Shown: one piece after another, positions 11,621 through 25,480 of the stretch
Numbering within the stretch: position 1 is the first letter of the stretch
Layout: each line of letters starts with the position of its first letter
From: Bacillota bacterium
GTDB lineage: Bacteria; Bacillota; SHA-98; UBA4971
Reading direction: 5' to 3'
Assembly (NCBI GenBank): GCA_012841305.1
Contig: DUVA01000251.1
Span: forward strand, 1 to 41,168
Length of the DNA stretch: 41,168 bases
Position numbers and translations under genes: made by a program
The notes under the pieces: generated by a model
What the model was told of the DNA's origin: nothing
Databases searched by the model: none
What the model saw: only the letters and a program-made list of their open reading frames with translations

Positions 11621-12529
11621 CTAGACGAAAAGGCGGCTAGAGATTTCCGCCCATAGTTGTTCAATGGCTTTGGCTGCGGTGATTTGTGAAACCCGGCTTG
11701 TGTGCCCAGGCGAGATGATTGGCTCACCTCTTGCAAGGGTCTTGACCACTTCCTCGTCAAATGGGACTCTCCCTGCCACATCAATGTTGTGTGTACGGCA
11801 AAACTCCTCAATATCCGCTGAGATCCGGTAGTCTAGGTCGTACTTATTAATACACAGCACTACCTCAACACCAAAGCCATCTGCGAGAGTGTATAGTCGT
11901 TCCATATCATGGATACCTGCGACTGTTGGCTCTGTCACGATAAGGGCCAAATCCACGTCGGACATTGAGGATATCACGGGACAGCCTATACCCGGAGGCC
12001 CGTCACATATGATCAGGCTGGACTCAAGGGTTTCGGCGATGCGGCGAGCCTCGCGCCTTACCTCCATCACCAGCTTGCCGGAGTTCTCTTCTGCCACACC
12101 GAGCTTGGCGTGAACAAGCGGCCCGTAGACAGTATCAGATACAAACCACCGGCCTGCAATGACATCCTTCATGCTTATGGCTTGATTAGGACAGATATGA
12201 AAGCATACAGCACAACCTTCACATGAGATGGACTCTATCTTGATATGCCCTTCATGCTCGGCAATAGCGTCAAAGCGGCATACCTTTCTACACGCTCCGC
12301 AGTTGTTACACTTCGCGGAGTCGAGAGTAGCCCTTCTGAGGCCGAAGAACTCATTTGTCTCTCTTACATTAGGCTTTAGTATAAGATGGAGGTCCGCAGC
12401 ATCTACATCGCAATCTACCAGGACAGTTGTCTTACAAGGAAAAGAATCCTTTGCCAAGCCTGCAAAAGCCCCGACTATAGTAGTTTTCCCGGTGCCTCCT
12501 TTGCCGCTGATAACCAGTAATTCCTTCAC
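11621..12529 (-). CDS. MinD-superfamily P-loop ATPase with inserted 4Fe-4S ferredoxin domain
   Basis: SGKGGTGKTTIVGAFAGLA; CNNCGACRKVCRF and CEGCAVCFHICPNQAI. Confidence 0.92.
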   Translation of the reverse strand: MKELLVISGKGGTGKTTIVGAFAGLAKDSFPCKTTVLVDCDVDAADLHLILKPNVRETNEFFGLRRATLDSAKCNNCGACRKVCRFDAIAEHEGHIKIESISCEGCAVCFHICPNQAISMKDVIAGRWFVSDTVYGPLVHAKLGVAEENSGKLVMEVRREARRIAETLESSLIICDGPPGIGCPVISSMSDVDLALIVTEPTVAGIHDMERLYTLADGFGVEVVLCINKYDLDYRISADIEEFCRTHNIDVAGRVPFDEEVVKTLARGEPIISPGHTSRVSQITAAKAIEQLWAEISSRLFV

Positions 12530-12568: not shown

Positions 12569-13426
12569 CTAAACCCGTTCCGCTGTAGCACAGATTTCAT
12601 GCCACAGATCCTGAAATGCCTTCTTTACCTCAGGAAACTCCTCTATGAGCCTTCCGCCCTTGGCATAACATGCAGCGTATCTTCGGTCGAATGGGATTTC
12701 GGCAAGTATGTGTATGTTCTCTGCCTTGCAATAATCCACCAACGTGCCGTTCCCTAAACCCGCTCTATTGATCACCACACCAAATGGAACTTGCAGTTCG
12801 CTCACCATATCAACTGCGAGTGTAAGATCATGGAGTCCAAATGGGGTAGGCTCTGTAACCAGCAAACAGAAATCGCTGCCACTCACTGAGGCCACAACCG
12901 GACATGAAGTCCCCGGAGGGGCATCAATGATCGAAATTATATCCTCAGGCATATTCTGCTTATGATTCTTCACTGCTTTCACAACCGGTGGGGCAAGCGG
13001 ACTCCCTATCTTCAACTTACCATGTATATGGGATATCGCTCCTGCACGGCCCCACTCAACTACCCCGATTTCCAGTGGCTCTTCTCTGATAGCGCCTGTA
13101 GGGCAAAGCAATGTACATCCGCCACATCCATGGCATAGCTCGGGAAAAGTCAATACATGCTTTCCCAAAGGCAAGATAGCGTTGAAAGCACAGATTTCTC
13201 CGCAGCGTCCACATCCGGTGCATTTCTCCTCATTCACAACAGGTACAGGCACAGTCACTTTGGCACGACCCTCAAGTACAGGTTTAAGAAACAGGTGAGC
13301 ATTGGGTTCTTCCACATCGCAATCCATGAGACAAACCGGCTCTGTCTCTGCAAGGGTCAAAGCCAGGTTCACTGCGATCGTGGTCTTACCTGTTCCACCC
13401 TTTCCGCTGGCTACTGATATGATCAT
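12569..13426 (-). CDS. MinD-superfamily P-loop ATPase with inserted 4Fe-4S ferredoxin domain (second copy)
   Basis: SGKGGTGKTTIAVNLALTLAE; CTGCGRCGEICAFNAI and CHGCGGCTLLCPTGAI. Confidence 0.92.
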   Translation of the reverse strand: MIISVASGKGGTGKTTIAVNLALTLAETEPVCLMDCDVEEPNAHLFLKPVLEGRAKVTVPVPVVNEEKCTGCGRCGEICAFNAILPLGKHVLTFPELCHGCGGCTLLCPTGAIREEPLEIGVVEWGRAGAISHIHGKLKIGSPLAPPVVKAVKNHKQNMPEDIISIIDAPPGTSCPVVASVSGSDFCLLVTEPTPFGLHDLTLAVDMVSELQVPFGVVINRAGLGNGTLVDYCKAENIHILAEIPFDRRYAACYAKGGRLIEEFPEVKKAFQDLWHEICATAERV

Positions 13427-13577: not shown

Positions 13578-13985
13578 TCACTCTTTCCCGCATCCACCGC
13601 CATCGCCGTGATCCTCATGGTGTCCGCATTCGTGGTTGTCCGTACGCTCACCTTTTCCGTGTTCACAAAGGCTTTCCCCGCCCCTCAGGGTACCGGCGGC
13701 AAAGGCCTTGGCCACCTCATCAACAAGTCCGGTCGCTCCCACGACAGTCTGGATGTTTTTCCCGGCAAACAGATTCTGAGCTCTCATGCCCATTCCTCCT
13801 GCGATAATGCAGGAAACCCCTAGGTTTGACAGATATTCAGGCAGAAAACCTGGTTCGTGTCCTGGATTGGGAATGACAGACTTGTCCATGACGGACCCGT
13901 CCTTTGCATCATATATGGTATATTCAGGACATCTCCCAAAGTGCGGTGCTACCATAGATCCCTCTGTCGCTATGGCAATCTTCAT
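13578..13985 (-). CDS. Dinitrogenase iron-molybdenum cofactor (NifX/NafY)-like protein with His/Cys-rich tail
   Basis: MKIAIATEGSMVAPHFGRCPEYTIYDA; tail CEHGKGERTDNHECGHHEDHGDGGGCGKE. Confidence 0.88.
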   Translation of the reverse strand: MKIAIATEGSMVAPHFGRCPEYTIYDAKDGSVMDKSVIPNPGHEPGFLPEYLSNLGVSCIIAGGMGMRAQNLFAGKNIQTVVGATGLVDEVAKAFAAGTLRGGESLCEHGKGERTDNHECGHHEDHGDGGGCGKE

Positions 13986-14146: not shown

Positions 14147-14518
14147 CTATGACATATTGAGCCCGGTATGCGAGTCTGTCGTAGCCCCGGAAACCTGGGT
14201 TAATGTCCCTTCCTTATAGGCTGTAATAGCGCCGCGGACTGTACCTGAATCCATGACAAACACCTTAATCCCCGCTGCCTCCAGGGCTCGGGACGCATTT
14301 GGCCCCACATGCCCTGTAATGACCGCGCTGACTTCACAGCCGGCAAGAAACTGAGCGCTCTTGATACCTGCTCCGCCTAACGCAGTCGTGCCTTCGTTTT
14401 GCTCAACCCTGTGTTCTTCTGTATCAAGGTCAACAATAACGAAATACTTACATCGTCCAAAACGAGGGTCAAAGTCTGCGTCCAAGTTCTTGTCCTGCGC
14501 AGTTATTGCTATCTTCAT
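14147..14518 (-). CDS. Dinitrogenase iron-molybdenum cofactor (NifX)-like protein
   Basis: MKIAITAQDKNLDADFDPRFGRCKYFVIVDLDT...VITGHVGPNASRALEAAGIKVF. Confidence 0.88.
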   Translation of the reverse strand: MKIAITAQDKNLDADFDPRFGRCKYFVIVDLDTEEHRVEQNEGTTALGGAGIKSAQFLAGCEVSAVITGHVGPNASRALEAAGIKVFVMDSGTVRGAITAYKEGTLTQVSGATTDSHTGLNMS

Positions 14519-15444
14519 TCTGGGACCTCCTTATTCACAATTTCAGTCCACCTTATTCCGGAACGCATCGCTTCACTGTCATATTCCTCTACGCGACCTA
14601 GGTCACAGAATCTGGCTAACTCGGGATCAAGCGGTAAGGCGCCCAGATAGGGTATCCCTGAGGATTCTGCCAGTTCTTCTCCCCTGCTAGGCCCGAATAG
14701 ATAAAGAGTCTCGCCACATTGTGGACACACTGCATAGCTCATGTTCTCGATGAGTCCCAGGATCTTGACATCCATCATTGAAGCCATTCTCATAGCTTTC
14801 TTAACAATCATTGCTGCGACATCTTGAGGTGATGATACAATCACCACGCCATTTAACGGCAGGGATTGCATGACAGTAATGGGGACATCTCCGGTTCCCG
14901 GAGGCAGATCCACGATAAGATAGTCGAGTTTTCCCCAGATTACATCTGTCCAGAATTGCTTTACGGCACCTGCGATTAGAGGGCCTCGCCAGATCACCGG
15001 GTCATCCTCATTCTTGAGAAGAAGATTGAGAGACATGACTTCAATACCTAAGTCGCTCTTCACAGGAAGAATCCCGAATTCCATAGCTTCTGCGGAGGAC
15101 TTAATACCAAACATTTTCGGTATGCTAGGCCCTGTGATGTCAGCGTCAAGCAAGCCGACTCTATAACCTTCTCTCGCCAGCTTCACCCCTATAAGAGCAG
15201 CAACTGAGGATTTCCCTACACCTCCTTTACCGCTCATGACAGCTATAACCTGGTTTATGCTGTTGAAATCACTTTCGGGAAGAGTCTCAATCCATTGCTT
15301 CATCTTGCAGCCGGAAGCCTCTTCCTTTTCGCCAACGTCCTTCGTCCCTTGCTCCACAAAAAGTCGCCTCCCACCCCATATACGCTGGACATTTCTCAAG
15401 TATTCAGGGGACGAGCGCAGATGCCTCGCCCCCTTCTTGAACAT
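14515..15444 (-). CDS. Mrp/NBP35-family ATP-binding Fe-S carrier protein
   Basis: VMSGKGGVGKSSVAALIG, DADITGPSIPKMFG, YLIVDLPPGTGDVP, ENMSYAVCPQCGE; internal ATG at 15444 has GGGAGG SD (track ORF begins 15459). Confidence 0.9.
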   Translation of the reverse strand: MFKKGARHLRSSPEYLRNVQRIWGGRRLFVEQGTKDVGEKEEASGCKMKQWIETLPESDFNSINQVIAVMSGKGGVGKSSVAALIGVKLAREGYRVGLLDADITGPSIPKMFGIKSSAEAMEFGILPVKSDLGIEVMSLNLLLKNEDDPVIWRGPLIAGAVKQFWTDVIWGKLDYLIVDLPPGTGDVPITVMQSLPLNGVVIVSSPQDVAAMIVKKAMRMASMMDVKILGLIENMSYAVCPQCGETLYLFGPSRGEELAESSGIPYLGALPLDPELARFCDLGRVEEYDSEAMRSGIRWTEIVNKEVPE

Positions 15445-15474
15445 AGAAACGCCTCCCAACGATAATTGCGTATC

Positions 15475-15984
15475 CTATTCGTCCTTATCTGTACTGTCTG
15501 TTTTCTGCTTGCCTAATTCGTCTAAACGTCTTTCGACAGCCTCCAGCTCTTCCTTAAGCAATGTGGTTTGTTCCTTTAGAAATGAGACCTCATGTTCAGT
15601 CGTGGCCTCAGCCTCATATTCAGGGTCATAGCCCGGATATGGGGTACCGTAGGCAGGAACTCCCTGAACGACTGGATAAGGATAAGCGGTTCCAGGTTGA
15701 CATGTGGGAACTGCCCATTCAGGGTGGCAAAATTGCATCCAACCGGCTCGGCCAGGCATTCCATACATTCGCCCACGGCCTACGCCTCTGCCTAAGCCTC
15801 GGCCCCAGCCTCTGCCTAACCCTCGACCCCACCCTCTACCTCTCCCGAATCCTGCTCCTTTGAATCCGGGCTGAGGGTTCATGTACCCAGCCCCAGGAAA
15901 TCCAGCACAGTATCCTGCAGCCCGTCCGGTTCTCGGGCCAAAACCAAGAGGTCCTATTCCGTCTCCTCGTGGCATATCGCACAC
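15475..15984 (-). CDS. Gly/Arg-rich DUF5320-like protein
   Basis: MPRGDGIGPLGFGPRTGRAAGYCAG motif, RGWGRGLGRGWGRGLGRGVGRGRM repeats, C-terminal coiled coil. Confidence 0.75.
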   Translation of the reverse strand: MCDMPRGDGIGPLGFGPRTGRAAGYCAGFPGAGYMNPQPGFKGAGFGRGRGWGRGLGRGWGRGLGRGVGRGRMYGMPGRAGWMQFCHPEWAVPTCQPGTAYPYPVVQGVPAYGTPYPGYDPEYEAEATTEHEVSFLKEQTTLLKEELEAVERRLDELGKQKTDSTDKDE

Positions 15985-16124
15985 CTCCTTCGTTCTATAG
16001 AATCTCCTGTGAGATTAGGGGATCCTTCTTTCGTGGGCTCAGAAGACCCACAGTAAGTAAACACCAGAACCTGACAGCAAAACCATCAGGGCCTTCCTCT
16101 TTCAAAAAGGCACTTATCGAATAA

Positions 16125-16173
16125 TGAGCATATGCTCACTTATAGTATACCCATGATTATGAGCATATGTCAA
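16125..16173 (-). promoter_or_regulatory. Promoter of the DUF5320/Mrp/NifX/MinD operon with overlapping palindromic operators
   Basis: TTGACA 16168-16173, 18-bp spacer, TATACT 16144-16149; perfect 14-bp palindrome TGAGCATATGCTCA at 16125-16138 and a half-copy TGAGCATATGTCA at 16160-16172. Confidence 0.75.
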
Positions 16174-16182
16174 TAACTAAGC

Positions 16183-16220
16183 AAAAAAAATAGACACCCA
16201 ACTGTCGATTAAGCGTCTAT
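16183..16220 (-). terminator. Rho-independent-like terminator of the DUF134 gene
   Basis: Minus strand ATAGACGC...GTGTCTAT followed by an 8-T run. Confidence 0.65.
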
Positions 16221-16259
16221 CCCTTGCATTCATTGCTATTTCTTAGATAGCAAACCTAG

Positions 16260-16736
16260 TCACTCTTGGTTCCAGCCCCTGCCTCTGCGGCCCCACGGCA
16301 TATTGCCAAATCCGTGTCCTTGGTTGTCTGTCCGCTGCACGTTTTCGTCGCCACATTGAGGACATGTCATTTCAATGCCGCGCCCGCCGGTTCCAAAAGG
16401 AACTTCAAAATCATGATCACACGCCCTGCACTTGAACTTGCGCATTGCCACTCTGTAATTGCCACCTTCAATACGAAGAGCCCGTCCTTCTACAAGCGCC
16501 CTTGCAATTTTCTCCCTTGCGGAAGTAAGATCCCTTTGAAAGGTAGGACGGGAAATCTGCATTATGTCAGCACATTCCTCTTGCTGCAAGCCTTCAAGAT
16601 CCTTTAGGCGAATCGCTTCAAGCTCCTCTACAGTCAGCACCTCTTCTTCCAACTCCCGAAGCGGCGCTCCTGCCGGTTTGAACACAGTCACATCAGGCAC
16701 GAATCCTACGCGTCTGCACTTTGGGGGCCTTGCCAA
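16260..16736 (-). CDS. DUF134/UPF0251 helix-turn-helix DNA-binding protein
   Basis: MARPPKCRRVGFVPDVTVFKPAG...LTVEELEAIRLKDLEGLQQEECADIMQISRPTFQRDLTSAREKIA. Confidence 0.92.
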   Translation of the reverse strand: MARPPKCRRVGFVPDVTVFKPAGAPLRELEEEVLTVEELEAIRLKDLEGLQQEECADIMQISRPTFQRDLTSAREKIARALVEGRALRIEGGNYRVAMRKFKCRACDHDFEVPFGTGGRGIEMTCPQCGDENVQRTDNQGHGFGNMPWGRRGRGWNQE

Positions 16737-16786
16737 GTTATTCGCCTCCGATTAAGTCATTTCCACTTGTGTATTATCTACTCAAT

Positions 16787-16815
16787 TCGAGCATATACTC
16801 TCGAGCATATACTCG
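16787..16815. promoter_or_regulatory. Tandem operator-like repeats upstream of DUF134 gene
   Basis: Exact 14-bp tandem repeat TCGAGCATATACTC x2 (16787-16800, 16801-16814), related to TGAGCATATGCTCA at 16125. Confidence 0.65.
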
Positions 16816-17275
16816 TCTCGTGTTCAATGAGGCAAGTCATCCGGGTTGCGCGCAGCCGGCATTACTTTTCCGGCGTATCAATCATATGTTCATAATTATC
16901 ATAGGCTTTCTGTAGTCGTGCGTCAAGCCGAACCGTCGCACCACGAAATTCCTGATTGGGCATACCTGTCCCTTTGACATACTGCTGACTGAAACGGGCT
17001 ATCCTAGGCATAGCTATGAAATGAATGGCAAGGATTGATGCCTTCATCGCCAGATGAATTCGGGACTCTCTCCCGGTTGGGTGCAACAACCGGTAGCGAA
17101 GAGGCCTGCAAAATCCCATCCCGAACAAGCAAGGTAGAGTAATTGCAGATTAAAGAAGGATTTGAGATTTGCCGTTTACAGTGCTACTCTGGAAATAGAA
17201 TATTCACATTGCCTAACGCAGTATCAATATGCTGCTCCATAGCGCAATGTCACTTGTGAGAGAAGGTAGATATTG

Positions 17276-23755: not shown

Positions 23756-24136
23756 CTAAGTGGTTTTCCACAGTCCGTGTTTGTCGCAGTATCCTCTTGC
23801 GGTGATATCGTCTGCTTCAATTTTGAACATGGCCTCGGGGACATCGCCTGGCTCCAGGAATTCCCGATAAGCCTTCCCGTCAGCGATTACCTGTATCCAT
23901 TCAATGAAATGATCCGGATCCATCGGATGAGGGATGCTTCCCACCGCAACCTTCACGCCTGTTTCCGTGCGTTCAACCACTGGAACGTGCTTCTCCCTGG
24001 AAGCGTCCTGGGTGTTCTCAGTCATGAGCGCCATGGGTTTGCCGCAGCATACCAGCTGACCTGCGCCCTGGTGAATCACCTCGACGATATTCCCACAGAT
24101 CTTGCATTTGTAAATCTCCAACCTTTTCGTCATCAT
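23756..24136 (-). CDS. dfx: Desulfoferrodoxin (superoxide reductase)
   Basis: [53 protein letters not shown]. Confidence 0.95.
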
Positions 24137-24193
24137 GCAACCTCCTGTCTACGCATGGTATCTCCCAATATTCCGGTCGCGATAATTAGGCTA

Positions 24194-24868
24194 CTACTTC
24201 AGCTTCTTGAAGCACAAGAACCAATCAAGGCAGTAGTAGTCTTCGCCTGCCTTCTCAACGCGTTCTTGCGCGAGCCCACATGAACCGGGTGGCGGGATGA
24301 TAACGTCATCACCCGGTTGCCAATTCGCCGGCGTAGCTACTCCGTGCTCAGTGGATGTCTGGAGAGCTATCAAAAGCCTCATAATCTCATTTACTTCTCT
24401 TCCGTTTGACATAGGGTAGTAAAGAATTGCGCGAATCTTCGATTCAGGGTCAATGATAAATACAGCCCTTACTGCTTGAGTATCACTGGCTGCCGGCTGC
24501 AGCATTCCGAATTTCTTGGCCACATCCATCTTTATGTCTTCAATAACCGGGAATTTAACTTCGACACCCTTCATATCCTTGTACACGATCTTCTCTTTGA
24601 TTGTCCTGAGCCACGCTATGTGACTGAATAGGCCGTCTATTGACAGACCGATGAGCTCACAATTGCGCTTACGAAATTCCTCTTGCATTGACGCGAATGT
24701 AATGAACTCAGTAGTGCAAACCGGTGTGAAATCTGCAGGATGGCTAAACAGAATCACCCATTTACCTTTGTAGTCATCTGGGAAATTAATCGTGCCCATT
24801 GTAGTCTTGGCTTTGAAAGACGGGGCTTCTTCACCTATTAACGGTATACGATATGTCGTCTCATCCAT
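24194..24868 (-). CDS. Peroxiredoxin (Prx6/AhpC-TSA type)
   Basis: WVILFSHPADFTPVCTTEF; SD GGAGG before ATG at 24868. Confidence 0.95.
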   Translation of the reverse strand: MDETTYRIPLIGEEAPSFKAKTTMGTINFPDDYKGKWVILFSHPADFTPVCTTEFITFASMQEEFRKRNCELIGLSIDGLFSHIAWLRTIKEKIVYKDMKGVEVKFPVIEDIKMDVAKKFGMLQPAASDTQAVRAVFIIDPESKIRAILYYPMSNGREVNEIMRLLIALQTSTEHGVATPANWQPGDDVIIPPPGSCGLAQERVEKAGEDYYCLDWFLCFKKLK

Positions 24869-24885
24869 GCTACTTACCTCCTGTT

Positions 24886-25377
24886 TCAAGTATCATTCAA
24901 ATGGTCCGAACAGTGCCTGCGCCGGTCTTCTTTACTGTCCGACCATGTGGTCTCATTTTCGCACTCTGCGCAGTATCCGTAGAACCTGTAATCGCTGTCA
25001 ATAATGCGTCCATCGATTCTATCTTTCAGCAGGAGATTGATTCGTTCTAACTCTCTGTCAACAGACGGCCTTAGATCCTCCACACGCCCACACCTTACGC
25101 ACACGAAATGTCCATGAGGAGCAGCATTACCGTCATATCTTGAGACGTTTTCCTTCATAGCAAGCTTCCTGATAAGCCCCGATTCAGCGAATGTCTGCAG
25201 TGTATCGTAAACAGTGTTAAGGCTTAGACTGGGAAAGTCGCCCTTCACAGCTTCGTAAATCACCTCAGCTTTAGGATGTGAAGTCGTCCCTTTCAGCATT
25301 CTATATATAGCGACCCTTTGTGGTGTCGGCCTGATTCGGGCATCGCGAAGCATATTTGAAATCACTGTCCGCGACAT
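24886..25377 (-). CDS. perR: Fur-family transcriptional regulator, PerR-like
   Basis: RIRPTPQRVAIYRML, TVYDTLQTFAESGLI, HGHFVCVRCGRVEDL; AAGGAAGG SD before ATG at 25377. Confidence 0.9.
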   Translation of the reverse strand: MSRTVISNMLRDARIRPTPQRVAIYRMLKGTTSHPKAEVIYEAVKGDFPSLSLNTVYDTLQTFAESGLIRKLAMKENVSRYDGNAAPHGHFVCVRCGRVEDLRPSVDRELERINLLLKDRIDGRIIDSDYRFYGYCAECENETTWSDSKEDRRRHCSDHLNDT

Positions 25378-25480
25378 ATGCCCTTCCTTAGCTTGTCTTC
25401 CTTGGTCTGAGTCTGGCTTCTTAGTCATGTCTAACAACTCGCTATATCCATAGTAGTCCGGTGAAATACGCTGTCAGATT

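Follow-up and report, generated by a model that had tools for sequence, protein, structure and literature searches.

A candidate palindromic operator of DUF134 (UPF0251) regulators at their own promoter and at an ORP-type gene cluster

A 20-bp palindrome with the consensus TTATGARCATATGYTCATAA occurs in three conserved copies in the window (the whole analysed stretch of Bacillota DNA, 41 168 nt) at two promoters: that of the gene for a DUF134 regulator and that of the operon DUF5320-Mrp-NifX-NifX-MinD-MinD. The palindrome is conserved in relatives and in other phyla, its association with DUF134 and ORP-type genes is nearly exclusive, and one of its bases covaries with a residue of the DUF134 recognition helix. 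Judging from these comparisons of sequences, we consider it highly probable that this palindrome serves DUF134 as its operator and that a DUF134 dimer represses both its own gene and the operon. We found no function, operator or structure for DUF134/UPF0251/COG1342 in the searched literature or PDB, and no prior description of DUF5320 or of the operator motif in the searched literature. The candidate operator, the repression layout and the residue-base code are new for DUF134 (UPF0251); new also is its predicted regulon, made of DUF5320, Mrp, NifX and MinD-ferredoxin genes (i.e. ORP-type genes) and DUF134 itself.

The gene cluster and its promoters

The genes of the cluster are listed in Table 1. 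The DUF134 protein matches PF02001 with 87.9 bits over residues 2-95 (cut-off 27); it consists of a sigma-4/DeoR-like helix-turn-helix (HTH) and a C-terminal zinc ribbon (CxxC...CxxC), with ISRPTFQR at residues 61-68 as the recognition helix. The probable start of the DUF5320 gene is at MPRGD, codon 4. According to Pfam, the ORP gene set is complete (PF10609, two genes with PF01656 and Fer4, two genes with PF02579). The fused form MrpORP (NBP35 with a dinitrogenase domain) was not found in the window, where the score against NF041136 was 336.9 with a cut-off of 450; Mrp and NifX are encoded separately. Between DUF134 and DUF5320 (16185-16225, minus strand) we noticed by eye a hairpin followed by a T-run, GATAGACGCTTAATCGACAGTTGGGTGTCTATTTTTTTT, likely to be a terminator parting the two transcription units. 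Divergently to DUF134 lies a gene for a DsbD/CcdA-like membrane protein (PF13386, 17273-17929), which adjoins DUF134 in some relatives only.

Table 1. Genes, operators and promoter elements of the DUF134 cluster (window positions)
Feature	Position	Strand	Basis or remark
Second MinD-type ATPase with ferredoxin motif, Orp3/Orp4-like	11621..12529	-	profile match
MinD-type ATPase with 2x[4Fe-4S] ferredoxin motif, Orp3/Orp4-like	12569..13426	-	profile; family comparison with PMC6345978
Second NifX-domain protein (PF02579)	13578..13985	-	profile match
NifX/dinitrogenase-cofactor domain protein (PF02579)	14147..14518	-	profile match
Mrp/NBP35 P-loop NTPase (PF10609)	14515..15459	-	profile match
DUF5320 gene (PF17253), first in the regulated operon	15475..15984	-	profile match
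Operator O2, AAGTGAGCATATGCTCATTA	16122..16141	-	about +1 of the DUF5320 operon promoter
-10 hexamer TATACT, DUF5320 operon promoter	16144..16149	-	between O1 and O2
Operator O1, TTATTGACATATGCTCATAA	16157..16176	-	covers -35 (TTGACA, 16168-16173) of the DUF5320-led operon
DUF134 regulator (PF02001, UPF0251), 158 aa, TTG start	16260..16736	-	profile match
Tandem repeat TCGAGCATATACTC x2	16787..16814		DUF134 5' leader, downstream of the DUF134 promoter
Operator OD, TTATGAACATATGATTGATA	16876..16895	-	directly 3' of the DUF134 promoter -10, at +1
DUF134 promoter: -10 TATGAT (16898-16903), 17-bp spacer, -35 TTGACG (16921-16926)	16898..16926	-	sequence and conservation in relatives

The three operators score 18-26 bits against the operator matrix (O1, 25.9; OD, 18.3). 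O2 contains the perfect palindrome TGAGCATATGCTCA (16125-16138), and the spacer between TTGACA and TATACT in the DUF5320 operon promoter is 18 bp long. OD is present in 7/7 genomes of the window's genus and is near-identical to TTATGAACATATGATTAATA, found at a locus of another family (L131). The repeats quoted in the original prediction are all present in the window. What it had described as a half-copy overlapping the -35 box (16160-16172) does lie there, although it turned out to be a part of O1, a full imperfect palindrome of 20 bp. In the genome-wide motif scan proposed along with it, the word GAGCATATRCTC was found only at 16126, 16789 and 16803, all in this cluster, in the whole 2.48-Mb draft assembly, with no match to the reversed pattern. 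When two mismatches were allowed, matches in the window were at the chance level.

The site at the DUF134 promoter is OD, missed in the original prediction, which had relied there on the tandem repeat of the leader. The two copies of this repeat score 2.2 and 2.8 bits, and in relatives the repeat is single, degenerate or absent; being unconserved and low-scoring, it was rejected as the DUF134 operator, and by comparison with the relatives it is a genome-specific element. Each copy holds GAGCATAT, one half-site with the centre, so the repeat could be imagined as an extra functional DUF134 site peculiar to this genome. We regard such a role as unlikely, as neither the second half nor the CATATG centre is left (GCATATAC), the scores are low, the repeat is not kept in relatives and it is situated >80 bp downstream of the conserved DUF134 -10. 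Thus, two promoters do share an operator, as had been claimed, with three conserved sites rather than four.

Conservation in the order, in Bacillota and in other phyla

Orthologous loci were drawn from 13 genomes of the order, representing two genera. The DUF5320 promoter of the window's genus has the form TTATTGACATATGCTCATAA-N..-TATACT..-GTGAGCATATGCTCATTA with the O1/O2 register fixed at 35 bp, and the DUF134 promoter has the form TTGACG-N17-TATGAT followed at once by TTATGAACATATGATT (16876-16926 in the window). In the sister genus the operator pair before DUF5320 was retained in the same arrangement in 6/6 genomes; DUF134 is located elsewhere in most of them, yet DUF5320 keeps the pair. 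Five sister-genus genomes with no sites at DUF134 could have been taken as counter-evidence; this was rejected, as a genome scan revealed the paired operator before the unlinked DUF5320. In one genus member (G006; L033/L188, contig C83) an internal deletion of ∼160 bp in DUF134 removes the HTH, and there is a frameshift in addition; all three operators are intact. This is either a recent loss, possibly a natural knock-out, or an assembly error. Upstream of the broken gene (L033, about 2440-2790), short repeats that include CGCTCATAAATGAGCG palindromes form an array. A relaxed scan of the genus for further regulon members yielded little outside this cluster. A 28-bit site, TTATGGACATATGCTCATAA, was seen in G006 (L316, G006:C24:21017) at the start of a spermidine-synthase-like gene beside a Fur-family-like gene.

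A motif search at other DUF134 loci had also been proposed with the original prediction, and in our search the operator recurred in other Bacillota families and in other phyla. A 20-bp positional weight matrix was trained on the window's genus alone and applied to a held-out set of 90 DUF134 loci from other Bacillota families. In 27/90 loci a site upstream of DUF134 scored above 100/100 shuffles. With the whole fetched locus considered, 44/90 loci had a site of at least 12 bits (86 sites in 475 kb); 20 control regions of the same genomes (400 kb) gave two such sites. At a threshold of at least 15 bits the numbers were 75 sites in the DUF134 loci and none in the control. About half of the 90 Bacillota DUF134 loci had no site recognisable nearby by the matrix scan.

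In an unbiased scan we searched 399 genomes of the window's phylum with the 17-mer TTGACATANGYTCATAA and found 45 sites in 42 genomes (two matches for the reversed pattern). By our own count, 36 of the 45 directly precede genes for DUF5320, DUF134, NifX, MinD or a DUF134-type zinc ribbon, one NifX (G039) being assigned by sequence likeness; in other genomes the gene that follows the operator is most often DUF5320. For 20 of the 45 sites a DUF134 gene lies no more than 3 kb away (p about 1e-38). Of the 399 genomes, 269 have DUF134, i.e. 38/42 genomes with a site versus 231/357 genomes without one (p=3e-4). Besides G006, three genomes with a site have no detectable DUF134, which is about what incompleteness would give; many of the compared genomes are metagenome bins. 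Several variations of the locus were seen along the way. DUF134 carries a NifX (dinitrogenase cofactor) domain fused to its C-terminus at L104, L114, L145, L152, L158, L176 and L177; a stand-alone DUF134 zinc ribbon with no HTH heads NifX operons behind the operator at L172 and L173/L206; the operator is directly upstream of genes for MBL-fold hydrolase-like proteins, possible further regulon members, at L168 and L175.

In records from Acidobacteria, Chloroflexi, Actinomycetota, FCB, Planctomycetota (Thermogutta) and Omnitrophota, a single operator precedes the DUF134 start by ∼30-55 bp; in a Zixibacteria record it is 490 bp upstream of DUF134, ahead of the gene that opens the DUF134 operon. 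A strict 16-mer is present exactly once in 8/19 genomes of other phyla, and by coordinates six of these eight sites are at the DUF134 locus. In a second phylum, that of a Deltaproteobacterial record, a site was found within 350 bp upstream of 36/71 DUF134 genes, mostly at 27-47 bp. Among these 71 genes, the subgroups with the helices SRPTVTR, SRGTVQR and ARTTVQS had no recognisable site nearby and probably use other operators. Two loci of this phylum with SRHT(F/Y)GR helices (L336, L370) have TTATGCTCAAATGAGCATAA-like palindromes with GCTC halves instead of GAGC; SRHT helices may use TTATGCTC...GAGCATAA, and the GCTC/GAGC switch could be a second residue-base covariation, at position 64.

The recognition helix and its covariation with the operator

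A model of DUF134 was built by AlphaFold2 from a 36-sequence alignment; the HTH is confidently predicted (mean pLDDT >90 for residues 31-90). In Foldseek comparison the predicted HTH superposes on DNA-bound Bacillus subtilis DeoR at 0.7 A over 40 residues with 40% identity, and on region 4 of sigma-E bound to -35 DNA at about 0.9 A. Top matches of the whole model (MCM N-terminal domains, TM about 0.2) were ignored, as they involve the zinc ribbon with poor global fit. In hmmsearch DeoR was the best PDB sequence-profile match of DUF134 (E=1e-4).

DeoR, a repressor of the SorC family (PDB 7bhy/8r7y), resembles DUF134 in the HTH and in the ISRPTxxR recognition helix, and its operator, ATTGAACA...ACATATGTTCAA (in full, ATTGAACAAAATTTCAATTACCAATTTACATATGTTCAA), contains the DUF134 half-site; R34 and R39 of DeoR make base contacts, R39 with the G of TTGAACA (PMC11229326). 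By alignment these residues would correspond to R63 and R68 of DUF134, the crystal-chain numbering being apparently offset by two. At the C-terminus the two differ: DeoR, which is tetrameric, carries a sugar-phosphate-binding domain there, and DUF134 a short zinc ribbon (or NifX). The predicted targets of DUF134 are ORP genes. DUF134 has no Pfam match to the C-terminal sugar-phosphate (effector) binding domain of the SorC/DeoR family. DUF134 is DeoR-like at the DNA and is not a member of that family. The same HTH fold is found in sigma-70 region 4 (sigma-E with the -35 element, PDB 2h27; SigR, 5fgm), and DUF134 matches PF08281 and PF07638. However, profile search matched in DUF134 only the region-4-like HTH and none of the other sigma domains, such as region 2 or core polymerase binding; DUF134 also differs from sigma factors in having a palindromic operator, with site positions fitting repression.

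Of the two arginines, R63 is invariant and R68 is present in 33/36 aligned sequences. With a residue other than Arg at position 68 (Asn, Leu, Ser, Ala or Gly), the operator half is TTRRC in place of TGRRC. In the first set this G is present in 191/294 half-sites for Arg proteins and in 0/46 for non-Arg proteins; in the second phylum the numbers are 52/72 and 0/12. Counted by loci, G at operator position 5 was observed for 110/115 Arg68 loci and 0/16 non-Arg loci (Fisher p=1.5e-16, with loci not independent). On the best tree residue 68 changed six times, at least three times on well-supported branches, with all changes concordant and none opposed; fully independent changes behind the covariation are few, and with three supported ones a sign test cannot reach 0.05. 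This covariation ties the operator to DUF134 itself. A similar dependence for the purine at position 6 (TGAAC versus TGAGC) was rejected, as the same helices were found with both and no pattern was apparent by eye.

Proposed repression, its alternatives and the ORP context

We propose that DUF134 would act as a dimer, as the two-fold symmetry of the 20-bp site suggests, each half TTATGARC-AT being read by the ISRPTFQR helix much as DeoR of B. subtilis reads TTGAACA. Bound at O1 over the -35 and at O2 at +1, 35 bp apart on the two sides of the sigma-70-type promoter of the DUF5320 operon, DUF134 would keep RNA polymerase out; bound to OD at the start site of its own promoter, it would exert negative autoregulation. 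DUF134 would then be released by a signal for which the zinc ribbon (in some relatives, the fused NifX domain) is a plausible sensor. The same geometry recurs among operator pairs: in 59/75 distinct pairs (15% in shuffles) a -10 within one mismatch of TATAAT is present 15-19 bp from the TTGACA of the first operator, with the start of the second operator 1-14 bp beyond this -10, most often 2 bp. A promoter sandwiched between operators fits repression by occlusion, and an operator at DUF134's own start site points to autoregulation. The spacings of the pairs, 33-36 and 39-46 bp, are bimodal and are explained by promoter geometry; a fixed helical phasing was rejected.

The words GAGCATATRCTC might be ascribed to chance, to promoter composition or to a repeat spreading in this genome. 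The tandem copies indeed look like a local duplication and the relaxed matches in the window are at the chance level, but the word is found nowhere else in the genome, and the numbers given above (45 versus 2 control matches in 399 genomes; 75 versus 0 sites of at least 15 bits at DUF134 loci and in controls) leave this origin practically no probability. It is refuted for O1, O2 and OD, and possible for the tandem repeat.

More has to be said about a different reader of TGAAC palindromes, be it an ArsR/SmtB metalloregulator, a SorC/DeoR protein or a Fur homologue encoded elsewhere, with DUF134 merely co-regulated. The TGAA-N6-TTCA symmetry of the operator recalls ArsR-type operators, which resemble it; ArsR genes are present in 13/13 genomes of the order; and in G006 the operators are kept with DUF134 broken. 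Also, the DeoR operator contains CATATGTTCAA (PMC11229326). Still, 0 of the examined ArsR loci of the genus had a good site, for which reason ArsR/SmtB was rejected as the binder; the gene common to the sites across phyla is DUF134; and another binder would not explain why the base at position 5 tracks residue 68 of DUF134. We find this alternative very improbable. Activation by DUF134 could be thought of as well, e.g. by a sigma-4-like factor recruiting polymerase at -35, given that its HTH resembles sigma region 4 on -35 DNA and that O1 overlaps the -35. However, promoters with good -35 and -10 boxes and 17-18 bp spacers should need no such help, and both the position of O2 at +1 and the single-site promoters with the site just downstream of the -10 (e.g. 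L296) fit steric repression, so that activation appears quite improbable. DUF134 is very probably an autorepressor and a repressor of the ORP cluster. The original prediction of DUF134 as the single regulator in both roles is now backed by the held-out enrichment, the unbiased scan and the covariation of helix and operator, though no longer by the tandem repeat, and repression is deduced from site positions.

The gene set of the window is equivalent to that of the orp operons of Desulfovibrio vulgaris (DVU2103-2109): Mrp/NBP35, two MinD-ferredoxin ATPases and NifX-type proteins. In D. vulgaris the Orp3-Orp4-Orp8 complex receives Fe-S clusters from MrpORP, and the orp operons depend for their expression on sigma-54 and the activator DVU2106, with IHF required as well in a heterologous host (PMC6345978, PMC3897727). 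The conserved promoter in the window is of the sigma-70 type (TTGACA-N18-TATACT) and has predicted DUF134 operators. ORP-type clusters outside D. vulgaris are probably run by a different and much wider regulator, and its regulon would offer a handle on the signal and the role of anaerobe-specific metal-sulfur proteins. One could speculate, with less confidence than an even chance would warrant, that DUF134 proteins form across phyla a repressor family responsive to metals or to Fe-S/Mo-S clusters, sensing through the zinc ribbon or the fused NifX domain and controlling, by way of a single ancestral operator, the orange-protein/NifX/Mrp machinery of anaerobes, with the code between residue 68 and base 5 conserved across bacteria. 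Elsewhere in the window (23756-25437), inspection of the open reading frames by eye revealed an oxidative-stress-like group with desulfoferrodoxin-like, peroxiredoxin-like and Fur/PerR-like regulator genes.
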